Positions 36,837-63,356 of a DNA stretch of 64,000 bases are shown here, piece by piece; the first letter of the stretch is position 1, and each line of letters begins with the position of its first letter. A program made the position numbers and the translations under genes. The notes below the pieces were generated by a model. The model did not search any database. It was not told the DNA's origin and saw nothing but the letters and a program-made list of their open reading frames with translations. Source of the stretch: Acidithiobacillus ferrooxidans ATCC 23270 (lineage in GTDB: Bacteria; Pseudomonadota; Gammaproteobacteria; Acidithiobacillales; Acidithiobacillaceae); assembly GCF_000021485.1 (NCBI RefSeq), contig NC_011761.1, forward strand, positions 1,394,001 to 1,458,000. The letters are read 5' to 3'.

Positions 36837-39314
36837 TCACGTCATCCGTGGCCACTGCTTGTCGCATACGCGACGGTAAACACTGCCATCATCATCAATT
36901 TGGAAGAGATAAAGCCAACCATTATCCACCAGTTCTCGGACGAGAATGTGGCGGGAAATGATGCTCTCCATCTCTGCCTGCGGAGCCTCAATCACCACGT
37001 TGAGACGGACCGGCTCATGGATCCAACGCTTACCGTCGTGCAGGGACTGCAAGGCAAAACCGACACGCAAATCTCCTCCATTCCCCTCTAAAACGCCGAT
37101 AGATCCCCCAACGACATTATGTAGCACTTTATTGCCGCTGCCGAAACGCAGATTGTCTACCATGGAGCCGTAGTATTGCATGTTGATCCAGTTTGCCACC
37201 ACCATGGGTGCGGTCATAATCAACTCCAATGTGGAGAAGCCCGCGTCCTTATGCCAGTCATAGTCATGCAAAAAAGCCCGACCTTCCAAGTCAACACCCC
37301 TTGTCCTCTGGCGGGGGGCTGCGATAAAAGCGGCGTTGCCTGCTAGTGCCCATTCGGGTCTGACTTCGGCCCAGTCCCGAGTGCGTCGCCGCATATCGCG
37401 CGTGACCACCTCAGGAGCTTGAGAGGCCGTACCCAGCAGGGTGGCGCGCTCCAACCGCGTAAGCTCACCCGCATCCGCCAGCCATTGGCGGAGTTGCGCC
37501 AGATCTTTGGCGTGTGTTGTCGGCAAATCTTCCGTATCAAAGATCGTCACTTCATCGGTTGTGGTGTCATGCAATCCGGCGATAAAATAGGTGTCTTTCG
37601 GAATTTTAAGCCCTTTTTCCTCAAGACCCCGGCGGGTCGCCGGATCGTTTAGCAAGGTTACCGCAATCCTGGCACTGGCTTCTCCCGTCTGCCCGGCACA
37701 AGCACCGCAATCGAGTCCAGTCCCCTGTGGATTATTGACCGTAGTGCTGCCATGGCCTGCCAACAAGATCAGGCGTGCGAATGTCTGCGTCAGCCCCATG
37801 TTTTTAAGGATGAATTCTCCGACACCCGCCCGCTCAGTTTCTGGTATTCCGGTACTTTTCGCACTGGATTTACCGTTACCGCTAGCGATCAAGCGTGGGC
37901 GCAATCTCTGTTTCGTCCCACTATCAAGGCCCCTTTCGTCCGGATGGGGTACGGTGCGAGTCCAACCCATGCTGTCACCGAAAAGCTTCGGGGCATATAG
38001 CAACCCGGTGGCTTCCACAAAGGTGAAAGTCGACACTGCTGATGTTTTGAAACTCTTCCAGGCGGTGGCTACCCGTAGGCGTAATTGCCTTTTTGCGGCA
38101 TGCCGTTGCGTTTCATCCTCGCTTGCATGACTCAGGTCCTCGCACACCCGATAAGGCGGATTGAAAATGACTGGGAGATGCCCCTTAGGCGCATTCGAAC
38201 CGAATGGGACGTATTCCATGAGTACGCCAAAGAAACCCGCAAAGCCCAAGGTTTGAATGCCTGGAGCCACTGTTTCCAGTGCCCGGCGGATGATTTCGGA
38301 GCGCACGTCTATGCAAAACGCAGCCTGCGCCACGGGTCGCTCAATGACTGTATTGCTTGGCCTCGATGCTTCTTTTAGTGATTTGATTAATGACCGCTGA
38401 TAGCCGATCTCCAGCGCGGTTTGCAAAATGGCATCAACATGCTCCGACGGTTTTTCTATCGCCCTATTTTGTTGGGTGTGCAACATCAGGTGCCATTGTT
38501 TTCGTACGGCGATATCTGCGCAGGTCTTGTGAAGAATGGCATCCCAACACACGCGGATGGCGAGAAGATCACGCAAGGATTGATCGGTCTCACCCTTCAA
38601 TTCGGCCTGCCAACGCAAATATCTAGCCCAACCCGCCCAGCCGCCGATACTCAGGAGTGCTGCAAAGAGATAATCATCGATCAGATCGAACGGGACGGAG
38701 AGTTCCTTCAGAGCCAAGGCAATGGCCGTTTCAGCGGCTGCCGGGAGTGCGGCGGCCGCTTCTCCAATCCCGCGCAAACCGACCATTCGCGGGCTCTTGT
38801 CGAAATGCATGAACTTTAACCAAGCCTGATACATCGGGTCATCGCGCCACGGCATGCTCCATGTGGCCTGCCCCTCGTCAAAGTACGCCGCGCAATATTG
38901 GCTAATCCTTTCCACAACGAAGCCTGGCCAATCCCGACGATCATCGGCAAACATGGCATCCGCGAAGACCGGAAAGGGCACGTTCCGGCTTGCCGATCGT
39001 TGTTTCATCACCTGCTTGAGCTGGGTAACACTCCAATTGCTGTGCATTTGCTTCAGTGCTTCGTCTAAATCCTCTTGGATGATCCGTCCGTTGGCGATCT
39101 GTTCTTCATAATATGGCCGGGGCATGGTCAGTCCCTTGCCAGTGATTTTGCGAAGCGTCTGATCCGCTCGCCAAAATGGTTGATCGCGCAAGCCAACGTA
39201 TGGATTTACTGCAACAAAGTGCTTGAGCGGCCAGAGTGGAGCAATTCTCTGGCATGCTCCCTCAATGTTCGCTTTGATGTCCTGATATGACTTTATTGTC
39301 GCTGGTGTTGGCAT
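36837..39314 (-). CDS. dabA: Inorganic-carbon pump subunit DabA (DUF2309)
   Basis: The 825-residue protein is the cytoplasmic, carbonic-anhydrase-like subunit of the DAB bicarbonate/CO2 accumulation complex. Zinc and catalytic residues are visible as Cys334 and Asp336 (FCIDVRSE), His521 (AGHGSTT) and Cys536 (GLDCGACAG), at the spacing known from Halothiobacillus DabA. Length is typical. It starts 2 bases after the dabB stop, so the two form one operon. DAB converts CO2 to bicarbonate in the cell, feeding the carboxysome encoded at 60-64 kb. Confidence 0.94.
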   Translation of the reverse strand: MPTPATIKSYQDIKANIEGACQRIAPLWPLKHFVAVNPYVGLRDQPFWRADQTLRKITGKGLTMPRPYYEEQIANGRIIQEDLDEALKQMHSNWSVTQLKQVMKQRSASRNVPFPVFADAMFADDRRDWPGFVVERISQYCAAYFDEGQATWSMPWRDDPMYQAWLKFMHFDKSPRMVGLRGIGEAAAALPAAAETAIALALKELSVPFDLIDDYLFAALLSIGGWAGWARYLRWQAELKGETDQSLRDLLAIRVCWDAILHKTCADIAVRKQWHLMLHTQQNRAIEKPSEHVDAILQTALEIGYQRSLIKSLKEASRPSNTVIERPVAQAAFCIDVRSEIIRRALETVAPGIQTLGFAGFFGVLMEYVPFGSNAPKGHLPVIFNPPYRVCEDLSHASEDETQRHAAKRQLRLRVATAWKSFKTSAVSTFTFVEATGLLYAPKLFGDSMGWTRTVPHPDERGLDSGTKQRLRPRLIASGNGKSSAKSTGIPETERAGVGEFILKNMGLTQTFARLILLAGHGSTTVNNPQGTGLDCGACAGQTGEASARIAVTLLNDPATRRGLEEKGLKIPKDTYFIAGLHDTTTDEVTIFDTEDLPTTHAKDLAQLRQWLADAGELTRLERATLLGTASQAPEVVTRDMRRRTRDWAEVRPEWALAGNAAFIAAPRQRTRGVDLEGRAFLHDYDWHKDAGFSTLELIMTAPMVVANWINMQYYGSMVDNLRFGSGNKVLHNVVGGSIGVLEGNGGDLRVGFALQSLHDGKRWIHEPVRLNVVIEAPQAEMESIISRHILVRELVDNGWLYLFQIDDDGSVYRRVCDKQWPRMT

Positions 39315-39316
39315 GC

Positions 39317-40957
39317 CTACTCCTCCGGGAACCGAACTTGTGGATTTGCCGCGTCCACCGTTTTTCCTATCTTCGATGCGTGCAGAAAGGCCATCTGGCT
39401 AAAAACAAGATCAACATACAGTCCATTATATAGGTTCACATATACGGCCTGCCAAAAAGCCGACTTCTGCAGACGGGGCAAAAGTTGCTGAATGTGCAAC
39501 AAGGAAAGAAAAGCCACGACGATAAGCGCCAGTAACCAGATTGGAATACGATCAGCCTGCACGGTATCACTGGGAATGCTGGTTCCCAGCAAGTCGCTAG
39601 ACAGATCATGCAGCCCAAAATAGGCTGAACAGACCATGATGCTTAACAGAGCCACTCGGGAAAGCAATGTGCCGGCTCCGACTCCGGACCTATTGAGGGC
39701 TTGCAGCAGAAGCTGACCCATCGCAATGGCGACGATGGCGCCGATCGTCAGCAAAGTAGGTTGCTTTTGCAAATCGATGCCAAATGCCATGGCAACTACA
39801 AAGGTCACTATCCCTGATATAACAATTGCCAATTCCGCTCGTCCGAGCGTTTGCGTTGTAGTGAGCTTCTGGATCGTCGGTCCACGGAAATTGTCTACCA
39901 CACTTCCGGAAGACAGGAACGCATGCGCCTTATAGACGGAGTGAGCGATAATATGGAGTACGGCGATACTGTACAAACCCAAACCGCATTCCATGAGCAT
40001 GAAACCTAGCTGCGCAGAAGTGGAATACGCCAGTGATTCTTTGATATTGGTTTCCGTCATCATCATGAGAGATGCCACTGTTACAGATAAAAGTCCCGCA
40101 AGAATGAGTGCGGTCCAGGCCCAGCTTACGTGGGTGATCATGGGACTGACACGCAAGAGAAGGAATGCCCCGGTATAAATGAGCCCTGCGTGTAATAGTG
40201 CCGAAACCTGCGTGGGGGACTCCATAACCTGAATAAGCCAACCATGCAATGGAAATATTCCGCTCTTTAAAATAGCACAGAGTACAATCAGGCCTGTTGC
40301 GATCTGCAAGCTGGCAGGAAGACTTCCGTGCCACGTGTGCATCCACTGTGCGATTCCTGAAAACTCTGCTCTTCCTGTGGTCCGTGCTATCAGCAGAAAT
40401 GCGGTGAAAAGGCTCACGTCAGCGATACGCGAAAACAAATACTTTTTGCGTGCCGCAATCACGGCGATCGGACGTTCGCGGTAGAATATCAATAACTGGT
40501 GTAAAAACAGACTGGCGGCGACAAATGAAATCCAGAATCCCCAGATATTATCTGTCACAATCAGTACTAGAAATGCTCCAACGGTCAGACTCAGCCACCG
40601 ATGGAACTGTCCCTCATGGGCGTCCCCTACCATATACGAAGCGGAATACCGAGAGACAATCATTCCCATAAAGGAGACCAACACGAACATGACGAACGTC
40701 AACGGATTAATCAATACTCGGACCGCAAATGAGCCTAGTTCCCATGGAAGATGGATCGACAGTAGGGTCTGCGAATGCTGTATTATCGCCAAATATATTG
40801 TCGTAGCAGCGATGCTACAAAGCAGTGCAAACCAATTGGCACCGTTGCTCAGCGTCTTGACCCAGCGCGCATGATGGTCCGCGCGGATTCCTACAAGTAA
40901 ACCCACCAATAGCAATGGCCATGGTGCAACCAACATAAGAAGAGAGGATGCAATCAT
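39317..40957 (-). CDS. dabB: Inorganic-carbon pump membrane subunit DabB (NuoL/Mrp-like)
   Basis: The 546-residue protein has about 14 membrane helices and the proton-antiporter fold of NADH-quinone oxidoreductase subunit L. Marks include VSFMGMIVSRYSASYMVGD, KSGIFPLHGWLIQVMESPTQVSALLHAG and MMMTETNIKESLAYSTSAQLGFM. Its partner dabA follows directly. DabB is thought to couple cation flow to CO2 hydration by DabA. AGGAGT lies before the ATG. Confidence 0.93.
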   Translation of the reverse strand: MIASSLLMLVAPWPLLLVGLLVGIRADHHARWVKTLSNGANWFALLCSIAATTIYLAIIQHSQTLLSIHLPWELGSFAVRVLINPLTFVMFVLVSFMGMIVSRYSASYMVGDAHEGQFHRWLSLTVGAFLVLIVTDNIWGFWISFVAASLFLHQLLIFYRERPIAVIAARKKYLFSRIADVSLFTAFLLIARTTGRAEFSGIAQWMHTWHGSLPASLQIATGLIVLCAILKSGIFPLHGWLIQVMESPTQVSALLHAGLIYTGAFLLLRVSPMITHVSWAWTALILAGLLSVTVASLMMMTETNIKESLAYSTSAQLGFMLMECGLGLYSIAVLHIIAHSVYKAHAFLSSGSVVDNFRGPTIQKLTTTQTLGRAELAIVISGIVTFVVAMAFGIDLQKQPTLLTIGAIVAIAMGQLLLQALNRSGVGAGTLLSRVALLSIMVCSAYFGLHDLSSDLLGTSIPSDTVQADRIPIWLLALIVVAFLSLLHIQQLLPRLQKSAFWQAVYVNLYNGLYVDLVFSQMAFLHASKIGKTVDAANPQVRFPEE

Positions 40958-41260: not shown

Positions 41261-42511
41261 TCAGTCGCTACAATCCTCCAACAGAGGAGCCAGGGCATCG
41301 GCACACAGATCCAGCCAATGGCAAACCGGTGTCTCACTGCCGCTTTGAAGGTGTATTTGGCAGCCCACGTTGGCCGTGGCGATGCAGTCCGGCTGCCCTG
41401 CCTGCAAAGCCTCCAGTTTCTGATTGCGTAGCTGCTGGGATAGGGTAGGCTGCAAAATAGAGTAACTGCCTGCCGAACCACAACAAAGATGGCTATCTCG
41501 AACATTGGTTAATTGGTAGCCGGCTTGTTGTAAGAGCGTTTCGACCCTGCCTTGCAAGCGCTGGGCATGTTGCAGAGAACAGGGCGCATGGAAGGCGACT
41601 GTGCCGCGATTAGCGGCCACGAAAGGAATTTCCCCGGCGCGTTCCAGGAGCCATTCACTGGGATCGCAGGCCAGAGCGGCGACACGCGCAGCCTTTTCAG
41701 CATAGTGCGGGTCGTTTTGTAATGCTTCCCCGTATTCCTTGACCATGCTGCCACAGCCGCTGGCGCTGACCAGAATGGCTTCAGCGCCGGCTTCGATCAG
41801 CGGCCACCAGGCGTCGATATTGCGACGCATATAGTTGTGCGCTTCGTTGTGTGCGTTGAGGTGCAGGCTGAGGGCACCACAACAACCGGCGCTGGCAGGC
41901 ACATCGACAGCCACACCGAGGGAGCCGAGTATTTGCTCCAGCGCCACCCCGGTCGAGGGGGTCATGACGCTTTGCACGCATCCGGCGAGGGCAATGACCC
42001 GGTGCGTCGCATGGAACGTGGCCCGGGGCGCCTTCAGTCGGGGCTTGGGCAGGGTCGGAACCATGCGCGCCAAAGCATCCGGCAACAGGGGCTTAAAGAT
42101 GTCACCGAGTCGTACCAGCAGATGGAAGCGCTCGGGATGTGGAACAATGGCGCGCAGCAGGCGGCGCTTCAGCCGCTCCAGTGTCGAGCGGCCCACTTCT
42201 GCCTCAATATGCGCGCGGCCGATTTCCGCCAGCCGCGCGTAGCGCACGCCGGAAGGACAGGTGGTTTCGCAGGCGCGGCAGGTGAGACAGCGGTCCAGAT
42301 GTTCCAGGGTATGTTCCGTGGCCGGGGCACCGGCGAGGAATTCCTTGATGAGGTAGATGCGACCACGCGGACCATCCAGTTCATCGCCGAGAATCTGGTA
42401 GGTGGGGCAGGTGGCGGTACAGAAGCCGCAGTGGACGCAGCTGCGCAGTATGGCATCGGCTTCGGTTACGCTGGGATCATTTTGGAAGCGGGGGGCGATA
42501 TGGGTTTGCAT
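41261..42511 (-). CDS. glcF: Glycolate oxidase iron-sulfur subunit GlcF
   Basis: The 416-residue protein carries two 4Fe-4S motifs (CVHCGFCTATCP near residue 25 and CLTCRACETTCPSG near residue 75) and two cysteine-rich CCG domains (GCCGALSLHLNAH, CCGSAGSYSIL). With GlcD and GlcE it oxidises glycolate to glyoxylate and passes electrons to the membrane. It begins 9 bases after glcE. In an autotroph with RuBisCO, the substrate would come from 2-phosphoglycolate. Confidence 0.93.
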   Translation of the reverse strand: MQTHIAPRFQNDPSVTEADAILRSCVHCGFCTATCPTYQILGDELDGPRGRIYLIKEFLAGAPATEHTLEHLDRCLTCRACETTCPSGVRYARLAEIGRAHIEAEVGRSTLERLKRRLLRAIVPHPERFHLLVRLGDIFKPLLPDALARMVPTLPKPRLKAPRATFHATHRVIALAGCVQSVMTPSTGVALEQILGSLGVAVDVPASAGCCGALSLHLNAHNEAHNYMRRNIDAWWPLIEAGAEAILVSASGCGSMVKEYGEALQNDPHYAEKAARVAALACDPSEWLLERAGEIPFVAANRGTVAFHAPCSLQHAQRLQGRVETLLQQAGYQLTNVRDSHLCCGSAGSYSILQPTLSQQLRNQKLEALQAGQPDCIATANVGCQIHLQSGSETPVCHWLDLCADALAPLLEDCSD

Positions 42512-42520
42512 GGGCAGACC

Positions 42521-43624
42521 TCAGAGGGTGGCGTAAAGACGGCCCGAATTGAGGATGCCGCGCGGATCGAAGGCCGCTTTGAGCCGTTGTTGCATCGCCA
42601 GCAGCGGTGGTGCGAGGGGATGAAAGACCTCGCCACGGCGATTTCCACCACGAAACAGGGTGGCGTGACCACCGTGCTCCGCTGCCAACTGCCGCAAGGC
42701 AGTCGCATCAAGGGCACCACGCAGCCAGCGTTGACCGCCGCCCCATTCGATAAGGGTCTGATCCCCGAGCGGCAAGGGGGGGGTGGCCGGGGCCACGGCC
42801 AGACGCCATAAGGGTGCGTCCCCCTGAAAAAAATCGTTCCGCTGTTCGCGCAGTGCCACCCAGAAGGCCGCCGCCTCGGCATCGGGCAACCTTTCGCCGC
42901 CCAGCCGGGTCTGTGCCGCCCGCACGGCGCTTCCGGTGCCGGAAAGACGTATATACAGGTGCTCACCATCATACGCCGTAGCGGAGAGCGGCAGTGGCTG
43001 TCCAGCCCAGTCATTCATGCGTTGGACGGCGGTAACGGGGTCCATCGGCCACACCAGAGTCACGGTACTATCGGGACGCGGCAGCACCTTGAGGCTCACC
43101 TCGAGCAGAACGCCCAGGGTGCCGAGGGCACCTACCATCAAACGGGAAACATCATAACCGGCGACATTTTTCATGACCTGCCCGCCGAAGCGCAGGATTT
43201 CGCCTTGTCCGTTGAGGATGCGCATGCCCAGCACCATATCGCGAGCCGACCCTGCGTAGGGACGGCGCGGACCGGAAAACCCACAGGCCAGCGTCCCGCC
43301 AATGGTCGCGGCGGGTCCGAAATGCGGGGGCTCGAACGGGAGCATCTGCCCGGCTTCCGCCAGTTGTGCCTCCAGTGCTTGCAAGGAAGTACCCGCGCGC
43401 AGAGTGATGAAAAGCTCGTTGGGCGCGTAGTCGATGATGCCCCGGTGGCCACCGAGATCGAGCAGATCGCATGCCGGCGTTTGGCGGCCATAAAACGTCT
43501 TGCTCCCGCCACCACGAATAGCGAGCGGTTGGGATCTGGCGTGGGCCTCTTGTACGGCCACTTGCAAAGTCTGGCTCTGATCTATGTCAAAAACGCTCCA
43601 GTTCGGGGAAAGGCAACTGGCCAT
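42521..43624 (-). CDS. glcE: Glycolate oxidase subunit GlcE
   Basis: The 367-residue FAD-binding protein shows the FAD_binding_4 pattern: LAIRGGGSKTFYGR, then PPHFGPAATIGGTLACGFSGPRRPYAGSARDMVLG and MKNVAGYDVSRLMVG. The start at 43624 is chosen because protein homology begins there; a longer frame to 43885 is the antisense-like shadow of glcD. It overlaps the end of glcD by 38 bases. Confidence 0.9.
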   Translation of the reverse strand: MASCLSPNWSVFDIDQSQTLQVAVQEAHARSQPLAIRGGGSKTFYGRQTPACDLLDLGGHRGIIDYAPNELFITLRAGTSLQALEAQLAEAGQMLPFEPPHFGPAATIGGTLACGFSGPRRPYAGSARDMVLGMRILNGQGEILRFGGQVMKNVAGYDVSRLMVGALGTLGVLLEVSLKVLPRPDSTVTLVWPMDPVTAVQRMNDWAGQPLPLSATAYDGEHLYIRLSGTGSAVRAAQTRLGGERLPDAEAAAFWVALREQRNDFFQGDAPLWRLAVAPATPPLPLGDQTLIEWGGGQRWLRGALDATALRQLAAEHGGHATLFRGGNRRGEVFHPLAPPLLAMQQRLKAAFDPRGILNSGRLYATL

Positions 43625-45053
43625 GATGCACATGCATGGCCCCCAACTCGGCGCAGCGATGCAGGCTGGGTACGGCCTTTCCGGGGTTGAGGCGACCTTC
43701 GGGGTCGAAGGCGTGTTTGATGCGATGCAACTGCGCCAGTTCGGCGGCGTTGAACTGAACGCACATGCTGTCCAGTTTCTCGACGCCGACGCCGTGTTCG
43801 CCGGTGACGCTGCCACCGACGGACACGCAGAGTTCAAGGATGCGGCGCCCAAATTCCTCAGCGGTGTGCAGCTGTCCCTCGGCATTCGCGTCGTAAAGGA
43901 TCAGCGGGTGCAGATTACCATCGCCCGCGTGGAAGACATTGGCGACCCGCAATCCATATTCGGCGGACCAGGCGGTGATTCGCTCCAGCACTTCCGCCAG
44001 GCGCTGGCGCGGAATGGTCCCGTCCATGCAGTAATAATCCGGAGCCAGACGCCCCACCGCCGGAAAGGCCGCCTTGCGGCCTTTCCAAAGCAGCAGACGG
44101 GTTGCTGCGTCCTCGGCTATGCGGATAGCGCGGGCACCGTGGCGTTGGAGCAGGGTTTCGACCTCTCGTAGCTGTTCCTCCAGTTCCACGGCCGGGCCAT
44201 CCAACTCACAAAGGAGGATGGCTGCGGCATCGCGGGGATAACCGGCATGGACAAAATCCTCCGCTGCTTCGATGGCGAGCCGATCCATCATCTCCAGGCC
44301 GGCGGGAATGATGCCCGAGGCAATGATGGCGCTGACCGACTCCGCTGCCGCCTCGACGCTGGAAAAGGCCGCCAGCAGGACGAGGACATGCTCCGGCATC
44401 GGCAACAAACGCACCGTGCATTCCGTCACCACACCCAGCAATCCTTCGGAACCGGTCATTAGCGCCAGCAGATCGTAGCCGGGGCTGTCGAGAGCCTGAC
44501 TGCCGATCCGCAGGGTTTCACCCGTGGCGGTCAGCACATCCAGCTCCAGAATGTTGTGGACGGTAAGCCCGTATTTCAGGCAATGCACACCGCCGGAGTT
44601 CTCCGCTACATTGCCGCCAATACTGCAGGCGATCTGCGAGGAGGGATCGGGCGCGTAATACAAACCCAAAGGGCGGGCCGCTTCGCTGATGGCCAGATTG
44701 CGCACGCCCGGCTGAACCCGAGCGGTTCGGTTTTCCCGGTCGATGGCGACAATATGACGTAAGCGGGCCAGACTGAGAAGCACCGCATCACGGAGCGGGC
44801 GCGCGCCCCCGGAAAGGCCCGTACCCGCGCCACGCGGCACCACCGCCACGCCGTGGCGCTGACAGATTTGCAAGACCGCCTGTACGCCCTCCCGGTCCGT
44901 GGGCAATGCCACACAAAGCGGCAACTCGCGCACTGCCGCGAGGCCGTCGCATTCATATGGCCGTAAATCTTCCGCACCATGCAAGACCGCATCCGCGGAC
45001 AAGGCCGCCTGCAATTCCGCAAGGAGAGCGGTAGGGTAGGGGGACGCGGGCAT
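43587..45053 (-). CDS. glcD: Glycolate oxidase subunit GlcD
   Basis: The 488-residue FAD-linked subunit has the FAD-binding segment VVPRGAGTGLSGGARP and IGGNVAENSGGVHCLKYG, the middle MTGSEGLLGVVTE, and the C-terminal FHAGDGNLHPLI and TGEHGVGVEKL. It is the catalytic subunit of the glycolate dehydrogenase complex. The start at 45053 (MPASPYPTALL) is preferred over 45071, since the latter overlaps the kinase gene. Confidence 0.92.
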   Translation of the reverse strand: MPASPYPTALLAELQAALSADAVLHGAEDLRPYECDGLAAVRELPLCVALPTDREGVQAVLQICQRHGVAVVPRGAGTGLSGGARPLRDAVLLSLARLRHIVAIDRENRTARVQPGVRNLAISEAARPLGLYYAPDPSSQIACSIGGNVAENSGGVHCLKYGLTVHNILELDVLTATGETLRIGSQALDSPGYDLLALMTGSEGLLGVVTECTVRLLPMPEHVLVLLAAFSSVEAAAESVSAIIASGIIPAGLEMMDRLAIEAAEDFVHAGYPRDAAAILLCELDGPAVELEEQLREVETLLQRHGARAIRIAEDAATRLLLWKGRKAAFPAVGRLAPDYYCMDGTIPRQRLAEVLERITAWSAEYGLRVANVFHAGDGNLHPLILYDANAEGQLHTAEEFGRRILELCVSVGGSVTGEHGVGVEKLDSMCVQFNAAELAQLHRIKHAFDPEGRLNPGKAVPSLHRCAELGAMHVHHGQLPFPELERF

Positions 45054-45067
45054 GCTGGGCCGGCACC

Positions 45068-46405
45068 TCACGCAGGAGCGTCGCCGCGTAAGCGGCGGCG
45101 GGCGAGGGCGAGGCTCCCTGCATCCCCCACATTGCCGGGGAAAATCACCACCGGCAGTTGGGGGGTGCGAGGGTGATCGGCGGGGCAGACCACCACAGAG
45201 CAGCCCGGCAGTATCTGCCCCATGACCCGCGCCATGCGCAGGGCGAGGCCGTCGCTGAGGACATCGTTGGAAGTGATACCGCCCTTGCTGATGAGGAAAC
45301 CGAGATCCTCCGGCAAGCTTCGGACCACCTCCATCAAGAAGGCCGACACAGCCTCCCCAAAGGCCAGACGGGCAGCTTGATCGGCAAAACGGCGCTCACC
45401 ACGGCTGGTGTAGATGACGACATCCAGCCCTTTGCCGTGAGCCGCCGCCGCTCGCCGCACAATGGCCTCCAACTGTGCAGGGCGCTGCGCGCCCGCACAA
45501 CGGTCCACATCGACCTCTATAGCCTCCAAGCCGGGTTCCAGGAGCAGACATTCCAGTTGCTCCGTGGTTTTGCGCACGTGCGAGCCGACGACGATGGCAC
45601 CGGCCCGGCTACCGCGCACCACTTGCGCCATATCCTTGGCCGCCACAGGTTGCGGCGGCAAGTCCGCCAGCGCCGTCAACAGGCTGGCGGCACTACGGAA
45701 GAGAAAGCGCCTGCCTTGTGCCGCGGCAGCCCGTAAATCCCGGGCAAAGGCGGCGAGGTCCGCGGGTTCCACCGCATCCACCACGGCGCAAACGTTGTCC
45801 CTCAGGGCCAGAAGGTGCCCCAGGCAGCCCGCGCGCAACTCCGCCAGCGTGAAGCGCTCCACCGCCGCCGCCGGAATCCGTCCCTGGGTCTTCTCCTCCA
45901 CGTAGTCCGGCAGAAAGCCGTGATGAAAGGCAAACACCGAATCCTTCGCAAATTCGGTCTTATGGGCGGGCGTCTCCACACCGTTCTGGCGCACGTAATG
46001 CACGCCGTCCCGCGTGATGCGTTCGCCCTCAAAAAAGGCGGGAATAAGAAAATGGGCGTCGAAGGGCCCCAACTCTTCGGCCATCACGTCGGTTTCCACC
46101 GGATAATGGCCGCGCAAGGTGGAGTCGGAACGACTCACCAGAATAGGCCGCACCGCCCGCCCCGCCGCTGCTGCTCGATCCAGTGCCACCCGCAGATTCC
46201 GGCAGATGTCGCGGGTGACCGCCGCCGCTCGCTCCCCCACCATGCCCCGGGTGTTACTGAGGATGAAAAAGAGCGGAGCCGCATCGCGCAGAGCGATGGC
46301 CAGCGTTTCCACATCCCAGCGCGTGAGCAGCAGGCACGAATGCACCGTCTGCGAACCCGTGGGGTCGTCATCGATGACGATGATTTTATTGTCGGCGTCG
46401 ACCAT
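45068..46405 (-). CDS. Four-carbon acid sugar kinase family protein (DUF1537)
   Basis: The 445-residue protein matches the OtnK/DtnK/YgbK family: IIVIDDDPTGSQTVH at the N terminus, VSRSDSTLRGHYPVETDVM, and the C-terminal nucleotide-binding GFLISKGGITSNDVLSDGL. Known members phosphorylate tetronates and related hydroxyacids. The gene lies between the transketolase-like gene and glcD with gaps of 12 and 14 bases, so it is in the glycolate operon. The substrate is unknown; a C2-C4 hydroxyacid made in phosphoglycolate salvage is a guess. Confidence 0.85.
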   Translation of the reverse strand: MVDADNKIIVIDDDPTGSQTVHSCLLLTRWDVETLAIALRDAAPLFFILSNTRGMVGERAAAVTRDICRNLRVALDRAAAAGRAVRPILVSRSDSTLRGHYPVETDVMAEELGPFDAHFLIPAFFEGERITRDGVHYVRQNGVETPAHKTEFAKDSVFAFHHGFLPDYVEEKTQGRIPAAAVERFTLAELRAGCLGHLLALRDNVCAVVDAVEPADLAAFARDLRAAAAQGRRFLFRSAASLLTALADLPPQPVAAKDMAQVVRGSRAGAIVVGSHVRKTTEQLECLLLEPGLEAIEVDVDRCAGAQRPAQLEAIVRRAAAAHGKGLDVVIYTSRGERRFADQAARLAFGEAVSAFLMEVVRSLPEDLGFLISKGGITSNDVLSDGLALRMARVMGQILPGCSVVVCPADHPRTPQLPVVIFPGNVGDAGSLALARRRLRGDAPA

Positions 46406-46417
46406 CCGCTACCATCC

Positions 46418-48637
46418 TTATCCGGCGTCGAGGCCGTGGATTTTATTGACGATGCTCTCGACGGTAATCCCGTTGAAGGCCATGAGTTCGGCCGGGGTGG
46501 CCGTGGTCTCACCGCGCAACCAGGCCAGCACATCGCGCTGCCTTGCCCGGCTGCGCAGCAGCACCGGCTCCAGCGCCCCGGAAGTACCGCCGCTGATACC
46601 TAGCAGCACCTCCCCGATGAAGAGGTCGTGGAAGTCGGTGTCGCACATGAAGCCCTTATCCGCCTCGGAAACCGTGTGCGCGGCCACATCTGCCGGGCGG
46701 TAAAGCTGGCGAGGGTTGATCACCGACAGGATTCGCACCCGGTATCCCTCCTTCTCCAGCACCTGACTGGCCGCGAAAACCGGTAGCAGGACCATATCGC
46801 CGGTCACTGCCAGGGTCACGGTGCCACGGCTGCCCGTACCCGCATCATGCAGGAGCGCCGCTCCCTTGCGCACCGCCTCCCGCGCCTGTGTCATGGTCAG
46901 CCGTACCGGCAGCGGACTTTTGGAAGCGATAATGACCATCGACTTGTTGACGCTGTTCACTGCGTACTCGTAGGCGGCCTGAATGGCGTTGGCATCCGTG
47001 GGATAAAGCAGAAAGACATTGCCGTTGCGCATCTGAGCGGCAAAGTAGTTCTCGATCTCCGGGCGCTGGTGGGTCCAACCGTTGCGGCCCTGCTCCAGAG
47101 CTCCGGCGGTGAACATGCAGACCGTGGATGGGGTCTTGCGCCGCAATTCCGCCATCGCCTGTGCGACTGTCTGCATGATGGGCCAGCCATTGATGGCAAA
47201 GGATTCATAAGACAGCCACAAGGAACGGCTGCCGAAAAGGGCCAGTCCCGCCGCCAAACCCGCGCAGGCATCCTCGTTCAGGGGTTCATAGACCTGCCCG
47301 CCGGGTTGCTGGTTATAGAGCGGATCTTCCGTGGGGTGGCGGATTTTCAGGGCGTCATTGATGTTCTTCATGGCCGAGGCTTCGTTGCCGTCGGCATTGG
47401 TCACCACAAAGCGCGGATCCTGCTGTCCCACCCAGGCCACCAATGCGCCCATGGCTGTGGCGGGTACGACCGGTTCGCCTAAGGCAAAATCCTCCAGGGG
47501 GAACTCGCCCAGCTTGGCGATTTCCAGCACTTGCTCGGTTACCGCCGTCTTGGCGGCGGGGCCACCCCCGGCACGCAGGAAGTTTTCGCGCACCAGCGCC
47601 CAGGATTCGGGACTGAGGGCGCGGCACTCCAGGGCAGCCTTGATTTCCGGGGAATCCGGAGTGTCTTTGGGATACAGGTTATGGGATTTGGCCCCCAGCA
47701 CATGCACGCCCGCACCTTTCATCTGCTTGAGGATGAAGGCTGTGTGGCGGCCCCCCAAGGCGCCGTCCGCCGCCTTGGCCATGCCGGTCAGCACCGCTTC
47801 CATAAAGGCCAACCGCTGGCCAAAGGAAAAGCGCGTGGAGTCGACATAGGCACCTTCCTGACCGGCATCGTCGAAGTTCTTGGCATCCACCAGGATGACT
47901 TCGTCGAAGTCATGGGCGCGCCAGTAGGCGATCATCTCGTCATTCGTCATCAGGGAAACCATGGAGTGATGTTCCTGACTAAAGCCATTCCAGACCAGCA
48001 CCGGCAGATAATTGGTAACCCTCGGATAAGCGAAGTGAAAGTGCTTCATGGCGCTCAGCACATAAGGCTCCCCAAAACCGCCGTCACCGATGGTCACCGG
48101 GAAGAGGGTGCCAGGGTGCAGCAATGCGCCCGCCATGGCAAAGTGCTGTCCCTGCCCCAATGGGCCCGCGGGAGCCAGCAGGCCAGGGATTGCTCCGGAG
48201 AGATGACCGAGCAGTCCATGCTGTTCGCGGAAACGCGCCATCATGTCGTTCATGTCGCGGATACCCATTTCCTCCAGGGAACAGTCAAGGAACATGGCGC
48301 TGTAGAAACCCGGGGCGTGGTGACCTACTTCGGTGACGATGTTGGTGTGGCCGAGCATCACCAGTGCGGCATACGCCTCCGTACTAGAGGCAAAACCGCC
48401 AGGATGTCCTGAGGACTTGGCGGCGCAGATCTGTAAAGTGCAGTAACGCAGGGCATCAGCCATGAGCAGGGTCTGGTATACGGCCTCCATGGCCGCAGGA
48501 TTGGGAATGGCCTTGCGTCCGGTCGCTATGGCGGCACTGCGGCCATACTCCTGGAAATTCGGCCAGGATTCACCAAAGTGGAACATGCCGGCGCAAAAGG
48601 CAGGGGCGTTGGCGGGCAGGGCGGTATGGGCGGTCAT
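46418..48637 (-). CDS. ThDP-dependent transketolase/phosphoketolase-like enzyme
   Basis: The 739-residue protein has an N-terminal ThDP-binding domain (LRYCTLQICAAKSSGHPGGF, then GPLGQGQHFAMAGALLHPG and TIGDGGFGEP). A transketolase-like pyrimidine domain follows (ATAMGALVAWVG, LNEDACAGLAAGLALFGSRSLW, EIENYFAAQMRNGNVFLLYP), then a C-terminal domain. It is not a canonical Xfp phosphoketolase in sequence, though similar in size. The reaction is therefore uncertain: cleavage or exchange of a sugar phosphate. The start at 48637 has AGGA upstream. It heads the glycolate operon and is divergent from an IclR gene. Confidence 0.8.
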   Translation of the reverse strand: MTAHTALPANAPAFCAGMFHFGESWPNFQEYGRSAAIATGRKAIPNPAAMEAVYQTLLMADALRYCTLQICAAKSSGHPGGFASSTEAYAALVMLGHTNIVTEVGHHAPGFYSAMFLDCSLEEMGIRDMNDMMARFREQHGLLGHLSGAIPGLLAPAGPLGQGQHFAMAGALLHPGTLFPVTIGDGGFGEPYVLSAMKHFHFAYPRVTNYLPVLVWNGFSQEHHSMVSLMTNDEMIAYWRAHDFDEVILVDAKNFDDAGQEGAYVDSTRFSFGQRLAFMEAVLTGMAKAADGALGGRHTAFILKQMKGAGVHVLGAKSHNLYPKDTPDSPEIKAALECRALSPESWALVRENFLRAGGGPAAKTAVTEQVLEIAKLGEFPLEDFALGEPVVPATAMGALVAWVGQQDPRFVVTNADGNEASAMKNINDALKIRHPTEDPLYNQQPGGQVYEPLNEDACAGLAAGLALFGSRSLWLSYESFAINGWPIMQTVAQAMAELRRKTPSTVCMFTAGALEQGRNGWTHQRPEIENYFAAQMRNGNVFLLYPTDANAIQAAYEYAVNSVNKSMVIIASKSPLPVRLTMTQAREAVRKGAALLHDAGTGSRGTVTLAVTGDMVLLPVFAASQVLEKEGYRVRILSVINPRQLYRPADVAAHTVSEADKGFMCDTDFHDLFIGEVLLGISGGTSGALEPVLLRSRARQRDVLAWLRGETTATPAELMAFNGITVESIVNKIHGLDAG

Positions 48638-48693
48638 GGTGCGATCATCCTGTGACAAAAAGAAATTGCATCCACTCTAAGCAAGACGATATG

Positions 48694-48729
48694 ATTCCGC
48701 AATGGGTAATCGTTTCCATAATACGGAAT
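48694..48729. promoter_or_regulatory. Candidate IclR operator in the divergent promoter region
   Basis: ATTCCG (48694-48699) and CGGAAT (48724-48729) form an inverted repeat, and a shorter TTCC-N7-GGAA lies inside (48714-48728). IclR proteins often bind TTCC/GGAA half sites. The site lies within the 97 bases between the two divergent starts. Confidence 0.5.
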
Positions 48730-48734
48730 AAGTT

Positions 48735-49514
48735 ATGTCAACATCTACCACCGATAAAAACTCCTCCATCCAGGTGATCGCCCGGTTGCGTGCTCTGCTG
48801 GATGCCCTCGCGGCGGAAGGGGGGAGCGCACCACTCAAAATACTCGCCGCCGTCACCGGACTCGCACCCTCCACCGCCTTCCGCATTCTGGCCTCAGCAC
48901 AGGACAACCAACTGATCGCTCGCGATGCTGGCGGCCATTACCGCTTCGGCCAGCGCTTGCAAGACTGGGCGCAGCTCGCCCATGGCCGCAGCGACCTACG
49001 CGCCGTCGCCCGGCCCATCATGGCCTGGCTGCGCGATCAGGTGCAGGAGACGGTGAATCTTACCATCCAGGAGGGCGACGAAGTGATCTATGTAGAGCGC
49101 GCCACCTCGTCGCGGATGATGCGGGTGGAGCAGGTGATCGGCAGTCGCGCGCCGCTACATACCACCGCCGTCGGCAAGCTCATGCTGGCGCTGAATGGCG
49201 AAGCTGCTGTCCAAAGTTACGCTACCCGCACCGGCTTGCCGGCGCTTACTGTTCATACCCTGCGTCAGGCCGATGCCCTCTGGGAAAACGCCAGAAGCGG
49301 ACTTGAACGTGGCTATGCACTGGACAATGAGGAAGCCGAGATTGGCGTCGGTTGTCTCGGCGTGCTGCTCCACAGCCGATTGCCCTGGAATGCCGGCCTC
49401 AGTATCTCCGCGCCTATTGAGCGTCTCCAGGAAAGCTGGGTACCGATGCTACAGGAGGCTGCGCGGCGGATAGATAGGGGCCACCAGAAAAATGATGTAC
49501 CGTCCATAAGTTGA
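48735..49514 (+). CDS. IclR-family transcriptional regulator
   Basis: The 259-residue protein has an N-terminal winged helix (ARLRALLDALAAEGGSAPLKILAAVTGLAPSTAFRIL pattern, residues ~15-50, then RFGQRLQDW) and a C-terminal IclR effector domain (ETVNLTIQEGDEVIYVER, APLHTTAVGKLMLA, ERGYALDNEEAEIGVGCLG). It is divergent from the transketolase-like gene and probably controls the glycolate operon and itself. Confidence 0.9.
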   Translation: MSTSTTDKNSSIQVIARLRALLDALAAEGGSAPLKILAAVTGLAPSTAFRILASAQDNQLIARDAGGHYRFGQRLQDWAQLAHGRSDLRAVARPIMAWLRDQVQETVNLTIQEGDEVIYVERATSSRMMRVEQVIGSRAPLHTTAVGKLMLALNGEAAVQSYATRTGLPALTVHTLRQADALWENARSGLERGYALDNEEAEIGVGCLGVLLHSRLPWNAGLSISAPIERLQESWVPMLQEAARRIDRGHQKNDVPSIS

Positions 49515-49813
49515 AGGGCCTGTAGGTGCATAGCGTGATGGGCAACGAGTAACCCCCATTTGATGGAAATGCTTGCTGACCGGTACTCTCAATTAGAGTT
49601 AATATTTATTAACTATAATAATAAATATAATTAACTTTTATCAATTATACGCTTCTCCCATACTGCACTCCAGTCAACGTCCTCTATGCGCGCTGACGGA
49701 CCCGATGACGAGTATTCCCCCCGCGTGATATCGGGTGCGAGCCATGAGGTCCCGTGACCAACGCAATGAGTGTTCCGGATGATCCGCTCTTGAATGGAGC
49801 AATGGGAGGTTTT
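49515..49813. other. AT-rich gap with inverted repeat
   Basis: No gene supported. From 49590 to 49650 the sequence is nearly pure A/T and contains GTTAATA-TT-TATTAAC (49598-49613), a perfect inverted repeat. It probably holds the promoter of the three-gene unit that follows. A longer GTG start at 49754 for the next gene cannot be excluded. Confidence 0.45.
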
Positions 49814-50083
49814 ATGTCGCTTTTCAGGCAGATGGTAAGACCCGCAGAAGACTTGAGGCTTTTGGCTTTCGAACTCGCTCAGGACATTGATGCCATTTCG
49901 TCAAAGGGGGCGCAGTCCCCTGAAAAATTCAACGGCGCCCACGCACGGGCGGCAGGGCATTATGTCTGCGTACGTTATCACCACAATCAAGAGCCGTCTC
50001 TGCTTAGTATCTATGAAGCGCGCCGTTACTTGGCATGGCTCCGTGCCGGTCACGTTGGAACCCACTGGAATGTGGCGGATTGA
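49814..50083 (+). CDS. Small hypothetical protein, first gene of DUF6671 unit
   Basis: GGGAGG lies 6 bases before the ATG at 49814, giving 89 residues; a GTG at 49754 would add 20. The sequence is soluble and mixed: LRLLAFELAQDIDAISSK, then HYVCVRYHHNQEPSLLSIYEARRYLAWL. No family recognised. It is co-directional with the two genes that follow. Confidence 0.55.
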   Translation: MSLFRQMVRPAEDLRLLAFELAQDIDAISSKGAQSPEKFNGAHARAAGHYVCVRYHHNQEPSLLSIYEARRYLAWLRAGHVGTHWNVAD

Positions 50084-50095
50084 CCAAATGAAGTC

Positions 50096-50115
50096 GGGGT
50101 TGCCATGGCAACCCC
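50096..50115. promoter_or_regulatory. Perfect 20-base palindrome
   Basis: GGGGTTGCCA followed directly by its reverse complement, 12 bases after the stop of the small gene and covering one possible start of the DUF6671 gene. With no loop it is more like an operator than a terminator. Confidence 0.55.
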
Positions 50116-51028
50116 ATGGCCTGTGCTTTTTTGGGAGTCATGCCATCAAATGCGTGAGATAGAGCATGCAAAATATTCGCGTTTGAAAAACGCCATCTAC
50201 AAAGATGCAAGCGTGGCCCTACTTACCCAGCACGGCAAGGAGAAAGTCGTTACTCCTATACTGGCTTCCGCCATTGGCTGCGAAGTTACACTGGTGACGG
50301 GCTTTGACACGGACCAACTGGGTACCTTTACCCGAGACATCCCCCGTGCTGGCACCCAGATCGAGGCGGCGCGGAAAAAGGCGCGCATCGGTATGGAGCT
50401 AGCGCATTTGCCCCTGGGGCTCGCTAGCGAAGGCAGCTTCGGACCGGACCCGTTTACCGGGTTGTTTTCCTTGAACGTAGAAATGGTTGTCTGGATCGAC
50501 GATACGCTCGGGATCGAAGTGGTGGGTGTTGCCTCGGGTAGGACCAACTTCTCTCATCTGCTCGCTGCCAACTGGGAGCAGGCCGAGGCATTCGCCCGTG
50601 CGATAGATTTTCCTGAACACGGGATCGTAGTGCGCCCGCGCCATGAGGACGACTCCCGCGTCCGCAAAGGGATTGCCGACTGGGAATCGCTGCGTGAGGC
50701 CTTTTTCTGGGCCTGTGGCGAGGCGGATAACGGCTGCGTCTTCCTGGAAACCGACGTGCGTGCGCATATGAACCCTATGCGCATGGAGATCATAGCTTCG
50801 GCTACACGAGATCTCGCAGACAAGCTTGCTACCCCATGCCCGGTCTGCAACACGCCCGGCTTCCAGATCGTGGAGCGCGTCCCAGGCCTGCCTTGCGAAG
50901 GTTGCGGCGCCCCGACCCGGGATACCTGGGCGGACATCCACCGTTGTGGCAGGTGTGGCCACCAGGTCGCGCTGGAACGTCTGGAGAAGGCCGCTCCAGC
51001 GGGTCACTGCGACTGGTGCAATCCATGA
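50105..51028 (+). CDS. DUF6671 protein with C-terminal zinc ribbons
   Basis: The body matches DUF6671: ASVALLTQHGKEKVVTPIL, then GFDTDQLGTFTRDIPR, ARKKARIGMELAHLPLGLASEGSFGPDPF. The C-terminal third has two zinc-ribbon-like cysteine sets (CPVCNTPG...CEGCGAP and HRCGRCGH...CDWCNP). The start is uncertain. The ATG at 50105 lies inside a palindrome; the ATG at 50150 gives 292 residues and fits the family better. The biochemical role of DUF6671 is unknown. The stop overlaps the next gene's ATG. Confidence 0.75.
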   Translation: MATPWPVLFWESCHQMREIEHAKYSRLKNAIYKDASVALLTQHGKEKVVTPILASAIGCEVTLVTGFDTDQLGTFTRDIPRAGTQIEAARKKARIGMELAHLPLGLASEGSFGPDPFTGLFSLNVEMVVWIDDTLGIEVVGVASGRTNFSHLLAANWEQAEAFARAIDFPEHGIVVRPRHEDDSRVRKGIADWESLREAFFWACGEADNGCVFLETDVRAHMNPMRMEIIASATRDLADKLATPCPVCNTPGFQIVERVPGLPCEGCGAPTRDTWADIHRCGRCGHQVALERLEKAAPAGHCDWCNP

Positions 51029-51645
51029 TTCCGAAGCGGCATGGCAGCCATGTGACGACAGCCCGAATGGAGGTGTATCGCGTTATGATGACTACGATTA
51101 CCGAAGCAGGGCGGGATATTTCAGTAACACGTCTGTTTCTTTTCGTTCGGAGAACAGACGACCTTGCCAGTGCCTGCCAGCAGGTCGAGGAGTTTCTTGC
51201 ATTTTGTCGCAGTCGCCAAAGCGATCCCTTTGCCAATGAACGTTTCTTGGGAGTCTGGGTGGAGGAGCACATAGTCACCAGTCTCCCTCAAGAGTGGGTA
51301 CAGCCATTGTCAGCCACTCAGACCCTTCTTCTAACGATGCGGGAGATTTTTGCATTATGGGGTATCTGGTCAGTCGCCTCGATGGATGCGGTATGCCTGG
51401 AGACCAATGAGGGGATGGCCCTTTCCCACAATCTAGTGCTTGATGCGCTGATTGCACTTACGCAGGGGGACGCCGGAACAGTTGGCGCTTATTCACCGGT
51501 CTTCGCGCGTGGCACGCCAATGGAACAAGTGCATGCAGAGATCAAACAACTGAATTTTCTGTATCCGCTTCGGATCGCAGGCCCGGTTTATTGCGACCCG
51601 GATACGGGTGCTTTGTCCTTACAGGACGAATTGTCATGCCATTGA
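51025..51645 (+). CDS. Hypothetical protein coupled to the DUF6671 gene
   Basis: The ATG at 51025 overlaps the upstream TGA (ATGA), giving 206 residues; internal ATGs at 51067 and 51085 are alternatives. The protein looks like a soluble alpha/beta fold: [20 protein letters not shown], then [20 protein letters not shown]. No family recognised. Coupling to DUF6671 suggests a shared function. Confidence 0.6.
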
Positions 51646-51712
51646 AAAAATGAACACGGTAAAACCCGACGCGGATGGTTATACTCCGACTTTGTGCGCC
51701 AGGAGGGTACCC

Positions 51713-52750
51713 ATGGTGAAGCGATTCACTCTCATACGCCCCGACGATTGGCATCTCCATCTTCGGGATGGCGCGATGATGGCCGCGGCACTCCCCGACA
51801 CGGCGAGGCATTTTGCGCGCGCCATTGTTATGCCCAATCTTCAAACTCCCATCACGACAGTCGATCTGGCGCAGGCCTACCGCGACCGCATCCTCGCGGC
51901 ACTCCCAGCGGATATGCGCTTCGAGCCGCTCATGACCCTTTATCTCACGGACAATATGCCGGTGTCCGAGATCGCGAAGGCAAAAAACAGTGGCTTTGTG
52001 CAGGCGGTCAAGTACTACCCGACCGGCGCGACCACCCATTCCGAGCATGGTGTGACCGATCTGAAGCGTGCCTATTCAGTGCTCGCGGCGATGGAAAAAC
52101 TGGATCTGCCGCTGCTGCTGCACGGCGAAGTGACCGATTCGGCGGTGGACATGTTTGACCGTGAGGCGGTGTTCATCGACCGGCACCTCATGCCGTTGAC
52201 GCGCGATTTTCCCGGCCTGCGCATGGTGCTCGAGCACATCACCACACGCGCGGCGGTCGACTTCGTTCGGCAGGCCCCCAACAACGTCGCCGCGACGATT
52301 ACCGCGCACCATCTGCTGCTCAACCGCAACGCGCTATTCGAGGGTGGGTTACAACCACATCATTACTGCCTGCCGCTCCTAAAGCGGGAGACGCAGCGCG
52401 CAGCGCTTGTCGACGCAGCCACGAGCGGCAACCCGAAGTTTTTTCTCGGCACCGACAGTGCGCCGCATTCGCGTCAAGCCAAGGAGTCCGCCTGCGGCTG
52501 CGCTGGCATCTATACCGCGCACGCTGCAATGGAACTGTATACCGAGATTTTCGAGCGCGCCGGTGCGCTTGACCGGCTGGAGGCCTTCGCAAGCTTCCAC
52601 GGGTCCGATTTCTACCGGCTGCCGCGCAACCGGGACACCCTCACCCTGGAGCAACGGAGCTGGACGGTGCCTGAAGAACTGTATTTCGGGAAGGACACGG
52701 TCGTGCCGCTACGCGCCGGAAAAACGATGGCGTGGACGGTGCTGACATGA
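51713..52750 (+). CDS. pyrC: Dihydroorotase (class II, PyrC type)
   Basis: The 345-residue enzyme closes carbamoyl-aspartate to dihydroorotate in pyrimidine synthesis. Metal and active-site residues are visible: DWHLHLRDG (two His), the carboxylated Lys in [31 protein letters not shown] and [16 protein letters not shown] lies 6 bases before the ATG at 51713. It is upstream of ilvD with a 78-base gap. Confidence 0.95.
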
Positions 52751-62631: not shown

Positions 62632-62970
62632 CTAGCTGAGTGACTGCCTGACCACGCCATCCAGGCCGCTGTCACCGGCATCGGGCGTCTTCGGTAGTAT
62701 GTTTTCTACCTCTGAGTGCACGCGGGCGATGATATGGGCGGCCACCAGTCCGTCGCCAACACGCTCACACGCATCCGCCCCTGCCCGTACCGCCGCATTC
62801 ACCGCACCAGTCTCACCGCGCACCAGCACGGTGACATAGCCGCCGCCCACGAACTGGCGGCCCACCAGGCGCACTTCTGCCGCCTTGGTCATCGCGTCCG
62901 CCGCCTCAATCGCCGGCACCAGGCCGCGCGTCTCGATCATACCCAGTGCCACTCCGCTGACATTTATCAT
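62632..62970 (-). CDS. csoS1B: Carboxysome shell hexamer protein CsoS1B (extended tail)
   Basis: The 112-residue BMC-domain protein is the same as the two other copies through ENILP and then has a distinct tail [19 protein letters not shown]. The start at 62970 is chosen by analogy with the other copies: GGAG lies 8 bases upstream of it. CsoS1 hexamers tile the shell faces with a central pore for bicarbonate and sugar phosphates. Confidence 0.93.
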
Positions 62971-63015
62971 TTCCATCACTCCATGTTCCGGTTCGGTTGA
63001 TTCGGATAATACGGT

Positions 63016-63312
63016 TCATTCCACCGGGCTGCTGGGCAGAATATTCTCCACTTCACTGTGTACGCGGGCGATGATATGGGCGGCTACCAGTCCGTCACCG
63101 ACACGCTCACACGCATCTGCTCCGGCGCGTACCGCCGCATTTACCGCACCGGTCTCACCGCGCACCAGTACGGTGACATACCCACCGCCCACGAACTGGC
63201 GGCCCACCAGACGCACTTCCGCCGCCTTGGTCATCGCGTCTGCCGCTTCAATCGCTGGCACCAGGCCGCGCGTCTCGATCATACCCAGTGCCACTCCGCT
63301 GACGTTTGCCAT
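63016..63312 (-). CDS. csoS1A: Carboxysome shell hexamer protein CsoS1A
   Basis: A 98-residue BMC-domain protein: [40 protein letters not shown] and [24 protein letters not shown] lies 8 bases before the ATG at 63312; an ATG two codons earlier is only 2 bases from it. It differs from the next copy by one residue (Ile/Val). Confidence 0.94.
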
Positions 63313-63356
63313 TTTCATTACTCCTTCTCTGGTTCAGTTGACTCAAGTAATACTGC

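Follow-up and report, generated by a model that had tools for sequence, protein, structure and literature searches.

A three-gene DUF6671 unit of Acidithiobacillus ferrooxidans as a probable accessory part of an inorganic-carbon uptake operon

Three genes on the + strand lie close together in the 64,000-nt stretch of Acidithiobacillus ferrooxidans DNA that we analysed (the window, part of the 2,982,397-bp single-contig genome that was searched). The first, g1 (49814..50083), encodes 89 amino acids from an ATG at 49814, and the GGGAGG ribosome site upstream of it is preserved in relatives. The second, g2 (50150..51028), encodes a 292-aa protein of family PF20376 (DUF6671; E 9.7e-47, 160 bits against a Pfam gathering cut-off of 23.8). 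An alternative g2 start at 50105 sits within a palindrome that separates g1 from g2, and 50150 is favoured because a homologous ATG stands there, 3′ of dabA, in two relatives that contain dab genes (G006 and G017). The third, g3 (51025..51645), has a candidate ATG at 51025 that overlaps the g2 stop codon as ATGA, whereas a nearly invariant Met in the g3 alignment falls on the ATGs at 51085/51088, either of which may be the start instead. The unit is flanked by a gene for an IclR-type regulator (48735-49514) on one side and by pyrC and ilvD on the other, the latter named by eye and by similarity.

All three are real genes. The first-pass annotation of this DNA described them as coupled, with two lacking a family, and both points hold. 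Neither g1 nor g3 matches a Pfam, NCBIfam or PADLOC family at E≤1, the best PHROGs match of g3 reaches E 0.36 only, and the structure model of g3 (pLDDT 41) is uninformative. Among 40 related genomes, fragments included, g2 was matched in 12, g1 in 13 and g3 in 9, and g2 lies immediately upstream of g3 in all nine of the latter. Strong g3 matches occur at 12 loci, a count that leaves out weak matches at L104 and L077 (22 and 39 bits), and are always directly downstream of g2. In the class sample g1 was found in 1 of 229 genomes, namely the source genome itself, and no g1 relative appeared in viral contigs (none among 117 pattern stretches).

The unit is preceded by an A/T-rich promoter region, as had been noted at first pass; this region is conserved and has dyads at 49592-49641. 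Within it lies a 26-bp element (49615..49640, + strand) that resembles a CbbR operator and carries TNA-N7-TNA boxes. At ≤3 mismatches the only other genome match of a 26-nt pattern for this element is the cbbR-cbbL1 intergenic region; the pattern was derived from both sites, so its two zero-mismatch matches are by construction, and the reversed control pattern had no genome match. The local alignment score of the element exceeds those of all 500 shuffles in five of five genomes. CbbR binds the upstream regions of cbb1-3 in EMSA, according to the available part of one report (PMC2942843). In G007 (L052:4418-8073), g1 leads the RuBisCO genes, standing ahead of the one for the large subunit and divergent from a LysR gene. 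This arrangement and the A/T element together place the unit in the carbon-fixation regulon, and it probably belongs to the CbbR regulon, driven by CbbR like the carboxysome operon; we infer that CbbR binds at 49615-49640. Between the promoter region and g1 runs a conserved leader (49641..49813, + strand) with 40 of 200 columns invariant in nine sequences. Its last ~150 nt (49660-49813) carry a short inverted repeat in the nine aligned sequences. An Rfam search of 49500-51750 returned two chance-level matches and none above chance in the leader.

Comparing the gene neighbourhoods of DUF6671 in other genomes, as the first-pass annotation had suggested, tied one branch of the family to inorganic-carbon transporters. 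We collected 67 DUF6671 loci by scanning genome contigs with a 12-sequence alignment and peptide patterns, blind to neighbours, and called transporters with purpose-built HMMs, of which one or two members per family were checked in Pfam. Within 2 kb of g2 homologues there were dab genes at 24 loci, SbtA at 9 and SulP at 3, so that 36 of 67 loci had at least one; within 5 kb the figures were 24, 12, 5 and 39 of 67, with one weak SulP match (L102, 63 bits) among the five. The same test applied to rdgB gave 0 of 20 loci (stretches of 5.8-20 kb in relatives, 14 of them owning dab genes). Removal of nine Acidithiobacillus-type loci left a transporter within 5 kb at 33 of 58, and among loci with 5 kb of sequence on both sides the proportion was 20 of 35. 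At 28 of the 67 loci no DabBA, SbtA or SulP transporter was found within 5 kb; some loci lie on short contigs, so part of these misses may be cut-offs.

The order dabB-dabA-g2 recurs in distant genomes, with g2 immediately after dabA at many dab loci, and DUF6671 genes adjoin SbtA-SbtB pairs as well as DAB and SulP genes. The link depends on the branch of the family. Loci whose protein is >40% identical to the window DUF6671 are transporter-linked within 5 kb in 35 of 53 cases, against 4 of 14 at ≤40%, and ten loci (L115-L122, L125 and L127) have no transporter nearby; the link thus holds for one branch of DUF6671, not for the whole family. A separately drawn phylum sample, whose genomes may overlap with the 67 loci, contained DUF6671 above cut-off in 8 of 398 genomes, and in the seven besides the source, dab genes lay beside it in four, SbtA in one and neither in two. 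To our knowledge neither the SulP nor the DabB-like proteins are specific to carbon. The association of DUF6671 with inorganic-carbon uptake is well supported. At one locus (L131:3835-7935) dabB and dabA matches fall in a single open frame right before the DUF6671 gene, an apparent DabB-DabA fusion.

The first-pass annotation had also proposed structure prediction. An AlphaFold2 model of DUF6671 built from 53 sequences had a mean pLDDT of 89.6 and a pTM of 0.84. Residues ~19-229 match the ITPase superfamily, with Z scores of 12.9 for HAM1 (1vp2), 12.7 for RdgB (2q16) and 12.2 for YjjX (1u5w). Of the ATP-grasp domain set just one lobe is matched, by residues ~131-204 (Z 8.0-10.3 over 56-70 aligned residues), as found in cyanophycin synthetase, biotin carboxylase, PurD and carbamoyl-phosphate synthetase. 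Foldseek with the same model gave a probability of 1.00, but its best E was 1.6e-3 and no match fell below 0.001. Positions invariant in the 53 sequences include T26, H28, K30, R66, K77, E94, G95, E111, K173, R211 and eight cysteines. As a correction to the zinc-ribbon protein named at first pass, these cysteines, present in 53 of 53 sequences, lie C-terminal to the ITPase-like fold. DUF6671 is predicted to have an ITPase-like fold into which an ATP-grasp-like lobe is inserted, and zinc ribbons at its C-terminal end.

Neither the ITPase nor the ATP-grasp relation is confirmed by sequence methods. When the 53 sequences were scanned against Pfam, the best 25 of 70 weakly scoring families other than DUF6671 itself were mostly of zinc-finger or ribbon types and included no Ham1, NTPase_I-T or ATP-grasp family. 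A PDB sequence search with the DUF6671 profile gave eight matches (best E 0.02), mostly zinc-ribbon pieces plus one designed protein. RdgB was taken for a direct profile comparison, since the YjjX family occurs in 0 of 75 genomes of the class and offered no close profile; hhalign gave a probability of 4.3% over 54 columns, which is not significant.

Several other roles for DUF6671 have to be weighed against one in carbon uptake. First, the zinc ribbons and a nucleotide site could serve to load zinc into DabA, making DUF6671 a zinc or assembly chaperone. The eight invariant cysteines, the position of g2 immediately 3′ of dabA at many dab loci and the single catalytic zinc of DabA2 in the available text of PMC13144422 would fit such a function. 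It does not account for the DUF6671 genes within 2 kb of SbtA (nine loci) or SulP (three loci). We know of no evidence that SbtA or SulP are zinc enzymes, and we consider the chaperone role unlikely. Second, the protein could be a house-cleaning NTP pyrophosphatase (ITPase) that is merely co-regulated with the pump under stress. Its predicted fold agrees with this, as does a Leptospirillum operon described in the available part of PMC9080137, which is chromate-induced and whose DUF2309 gene lowered ROS in E. coli. On the other side, an RdgB/HAM1 gene exists elsewhere in the genome, sequence comparison does not securely recover the canonical motifs, and the linkage to three transporter families would be left unexplained, all of which makes a plain ITPase improbable.

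Third, g2 could be a passive passenger in a biosynthetic cluster that uses bicarbonate, with no part in transport. TsaC, BioD and PurK use bicarbonate or CO2, and within 5 kb of g2 at the 67 loci we found tsaC 15 times, pyrC 15, ilvD 12, bioD 6 and purK 3. Transporters are both nearer and commoner (36 of 67 loci within 2 kb), and the repeated dabB-dabA-g2 order in distant genomes speaks against chance company, so we rate hitchhiking as distinctly improbable. A carbon-uptake role for DUF6671 is the reading that we carry forward.

Between g1 and g2 lies a perfect 20-bp palindrome (50096..50115, + strand). Perfect palindromes of this length arise by chance at 4^-10 per position, or ~0.002 per 1.8 kb and ~3 per genome. 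The first-pass annotation called it loop-free; its perfection and place stand, whereas as RNA it forms an 8-bp stem with a 4-base loop. The homologous stem is recognisable 3′ of g1 at 12 of the 14 g1 loci whose downstream sequence was read (G000, G012, G002, G013, G010, G008 contig 277, G006, G017, G004, G007 and two in G020); the two exceptions are G008 contig 53 and G016, the latter with an unrelated inverted repeat at this place. In 11 aligned sequences 96.6% of stem cells are paired, against 37-62% in slid versions. One of the eight stem pairs is changed on both sides, from UA to CG in five sequences; the covariation score was reached by 9 of 500 shuffles and the count of compensated pairs by 413 of 500, so that covariation gives the hairpin modest backing. 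A 67-nt hairpin fold has z -1.9, and 9 of 200 shuffles fold equally well. A T6 run begins 11 bases 3′ of the palindrome, with no such run in G017 or G020b. Terminator scoring picked out an alternative stem at 50102-50120 for the + strand and, for the - strand, the palindrome itself (five terminator-like sites in the region against 2.1 expected); the stem at 50102-50120 may be used in this way.

The palindrome was at first taken as a possible target of the DUF6671 protein, the whole forming an undescribed stand-alone system for nucleic-acid contact or metal sensing. The zinc ribbons, and a palindrome that is also perfect in G012, G010, G008 contig 277, G006 and G017, would suit such binding. 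As a DNA operator, however, it has one exact genome copy (the next best site has three mismatches), the symmetry of its centre is lost in G002, G013 and other relatives with the stem kept, and a hairpin is present 3′ of g1 also at loci that lack g2, such as G007, where RuBisCO genes come next. With the dab synteny described below, these points led us to reject the operator and make a stand-alone system very improbable. The stem and the unit are both conserved in relatives, and the palindrome is best understood as a hairpin in intercistronic mRNA, apparently a former g1-dabB stem-loop with one compensated pair.

The history of the unit can be read from its relatives. In G006 and G017 the order is g1-dabB-dabA-g2-g3, where one gene for a NuoL-like protein and one for DabA separate g1 from g2; a Pfam check of the G006 pair gave PF00361/PF00662 for dabB and PF10070 for dabA. 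In the window g1 and g2 are adjacent, as they are throughout G000, G012, G002, G013 and G010. The gap between them terminates ...GGGAGTC-ATGCCATCAA-ATGCGTGAG, and dabB begins with ATGCCATCAA(A) in G006, G017 and G004, while g2 begins with ATGCGTGAG. Positions 50140..50149 (+ strand) are thus the first ten dabB bases fused to g2, a deletion scar. A gap of the same form in G012, G002, G013 and G010 (with two base changes in G002) points to a single deletion before these genomes split. Intermediate and related arrangements were also found: in G004 a remnant of dabB (137 aa) still lies between g1 and g2; g2 stands immediately 3′ of a dabA in G004 (second copy) and in G011; G008 contig 53 still has dabB, with g1 and dabA incomplete; and G016 has dabB-dabA-g1-g2 without g3.

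The reverse event, insertion of dabB-dabA between g1 and g2 in G006 and G017, would suit the greater number of sampled Acidithiobacillus genomes with g1 and g2 joined (five, against two interrupted by dab), but it can be all but dismissed in view of the dabB start codon and leader retained in the window and of the dabA-g2 adjacency in Ferrovum, in Nitrospirota loci and in G026, a member of another family of the order in which g2 is a broken gene immediately after dabA. The genes that survived the deletion have remained under constraint. Between pairs of genomes that share the scar, dN/dS ranges over 0.17-0.25 in g2 and 0.23-0.32 in g1 (G000, G002, G013 and G010) and over 0.19-0.28 in g3 (G000, G002 and G013), and these low values indicate that the genes have been retained since dabB-dabA was lost.

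A second, intact dab pair remains in the window. The genome's only PF10070 gene, dabA (36837..39314, - strand), and its partner dabB (39317..40957, - strand) have the composition of a DAB pump, with 946 bits for DabA and E 3.3e-36 for Proton_antipo_M in DabB. By motif and spacing, window DabA residues C334-x-D336-x-R338, H521 and C536 correspond to C351/D353/R355/H524/C539 of DabA2, which covers the zinc and Asp-Arg residues. In a DabA tree, from which the broken G002 gene was left out, the window copy groups with those of G012, G010, G008 and G014, apart from the G006 and G017 copies between g1 and g2; it is a paralogue of the lost copy. In G014 a dabA of the window clade stands divergent beside a g1 truncated by the contig end, and in G002 a divergent dabB adjoins g1, whereas in the window dabB lies 8.9 kb from g1.

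The divergent dabA of G002 (L058:10716-15873) is split into several frames, with unrelated ORFs between them that look transposase-like by eye. The stretch between dabB and g1 in the window (41261-49514) holds FAD-oxidase, Fe-S, sugar-acid kinase (SBD_N), phosphoketolase-like and IclR genes, which may act in glycolate or sugar-acid metabolism. Immediately downstream of dabA lies a 342-aa gene without a Pfam family at E≤1e-5 (35682-36710), also found beside dabA in L138, L139, L141 and L142. At 62645-63627 there are three ~300-bp direct repeats (identity to the reference copy 79% and 94%), which probably represent the three carboxysome shell genes. VWA/CbbO-like, ParA-like and ferritin genes are arranged in an order similar to that in Table 2 of PMC6458275. 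The available part of this 2019 description of A. ferrooxidans reports no classical bicarbonate uptake system, in contrast to the intact dabBA and accessory genes seen here in the neighbourhood of carboxysome genes.

Taken together, these observations support a reading in which the three-gene unit is the accessory remainder of a DAB-type operon for inorganic-carbon uptake. The ancestral order would be g1-dabB-dabA-g2-g3; dabB-dabA was then deleted, and the retained g1, g2 and g3, probably driven by CbbR, would work in trans with the remaining dabBA. We put the probability of this statement as a whole at roughly 0.7. For this unit the carbon-uptake association and the deletion history are, on their own, very probable. 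The basis is synteny, the scar, hairpin conservation, the operator-like element and the linkage of one DUF6671 branch to three unrelated transporter families, plus the predicted fold. DUF6671 is best read as a protein that would bind a nucleotide and assist or regulate inorganic-carbon uptake as a member of the CbbR regulon, most likely a soluble partner of carbon pumps that may act by gating, assembly or enzymatic action; the biochemical step itself we infer.

A mechanism can be outlined on this basis. CbbR would bind the A/T element and drive the unit, and the hairpin would tune g1 against the downstream message. The products of g1, g2 and g3, kept under purifying selection after the loss of dabB-dabA, would work in trans with the remaining dabBA (36837-40957) and elsewhere with other carbon pumps. 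The ITPase-like cleft of DUF6671, together with its ATP-grasp-like lobe, would bind a nucleotide, and this binding would license, gate or assemble the transporter by analogy with SbtB. More tentatively, and less likely than not, one branch of DUF6671 could be a common, unrecognised nucleotide-binding protein for control or assembly, interchangeable among unrelated pumps (DabAB, SbtA and SulP/BicA-like). On that view its core and lobe could form a joint sensor of ATP and bicarbonate, the substrate pair of ATP-grasp carboxylases and of TsaC, whose genes often adjoin DUF6671. No paper, title or abstract opening about DUF6671 was found in the open-licence literature, and the present analysis gives a family of unknown function a predicted fold and a concrete, testable role in CO2-concentrating mechanisms.

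The unit can be set beside several known systems. Like the DAB/DAC pumps (DabA PF10070 with DabB PF00361), its ancestral operon held dabB-dabA, between g1 and g2, and an intact paralogue persists in the window. The unit has no DabA or DabB between g1 and g3, just the ten-base dabB scar, and is accessory, not itself a DAB. The available parts of two DAB/DAC accounts name no DUF6671-like component (PMC13144422, PMC12628692). With the ITPase superfamily (RdgB/HAM1, YjjX, Maf and HcgB) DUF6671 shares the predicted fold over residues ~19-229, best Z 12.9, but it differs in its added ATP-grasp-like lobe and zinc ribbons and in motifs that align weakly. The PII-like protein SbtB is a nucleotide-binding regulator of the bicarbonate transporter SbtA. 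DUF6671 is likewise predicted to be a soluble partner that binds a nucleotide and has its gene next to that of a bicarbonate transporter; the fold of DUF6671 is unlike that of SbtB, and its genes stand beside SbtA-SbtB pairs, DAB and SulP genes.

Finally, the 'och' operon of Leptospirillum invites comparison. The available part of its description (PMC9080137) gives a co-transcribed, chromate-induced order NuoL-DUF2309-hypothetical-dihydroxyacid dehydratase (ilvD), then Sua5, and an A. ferrooxidans homologue of the hypothetical protein at 54% identity (Table 1). Two Nitrospirae MAGs (L098 and L106) have dabB-dabA-g2-ilvD-tsaC, with g2 products 56% and 51% identical to that of the window. The published DUF2309 primer matches both exactly, and the primer for the hypothetical gene, which encodes the DUF6671 motif GKEAVI, falls in their g2 with 3-4 mismatches. 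The other four primers find chance-level best matches there (5-6 mismatches), and the two fitting primers are about 235 and 283 bases apart, against a published 388-bp product, so the MAGs are relatives and not the same strain. Primer matches and gene order together indicate that the third och gene is probably DUF6671, and NuoL-DUF2309-hypothetical-ilvD-Sua5 then corresponds to dabB-dabA-DUF6671-ilvD-tsaC. In the text available, the authors read an oxidative-stress operon unique to Leptospirillum, with no domain in the third protein and the genes not operonic outside that genus. The clustering of dabB-dabA-DUF6671 does occur beyond Leptospirillum, judging by the gene orders found here. The analysis suggests that the 'och' operon is a carbon-pump operon.
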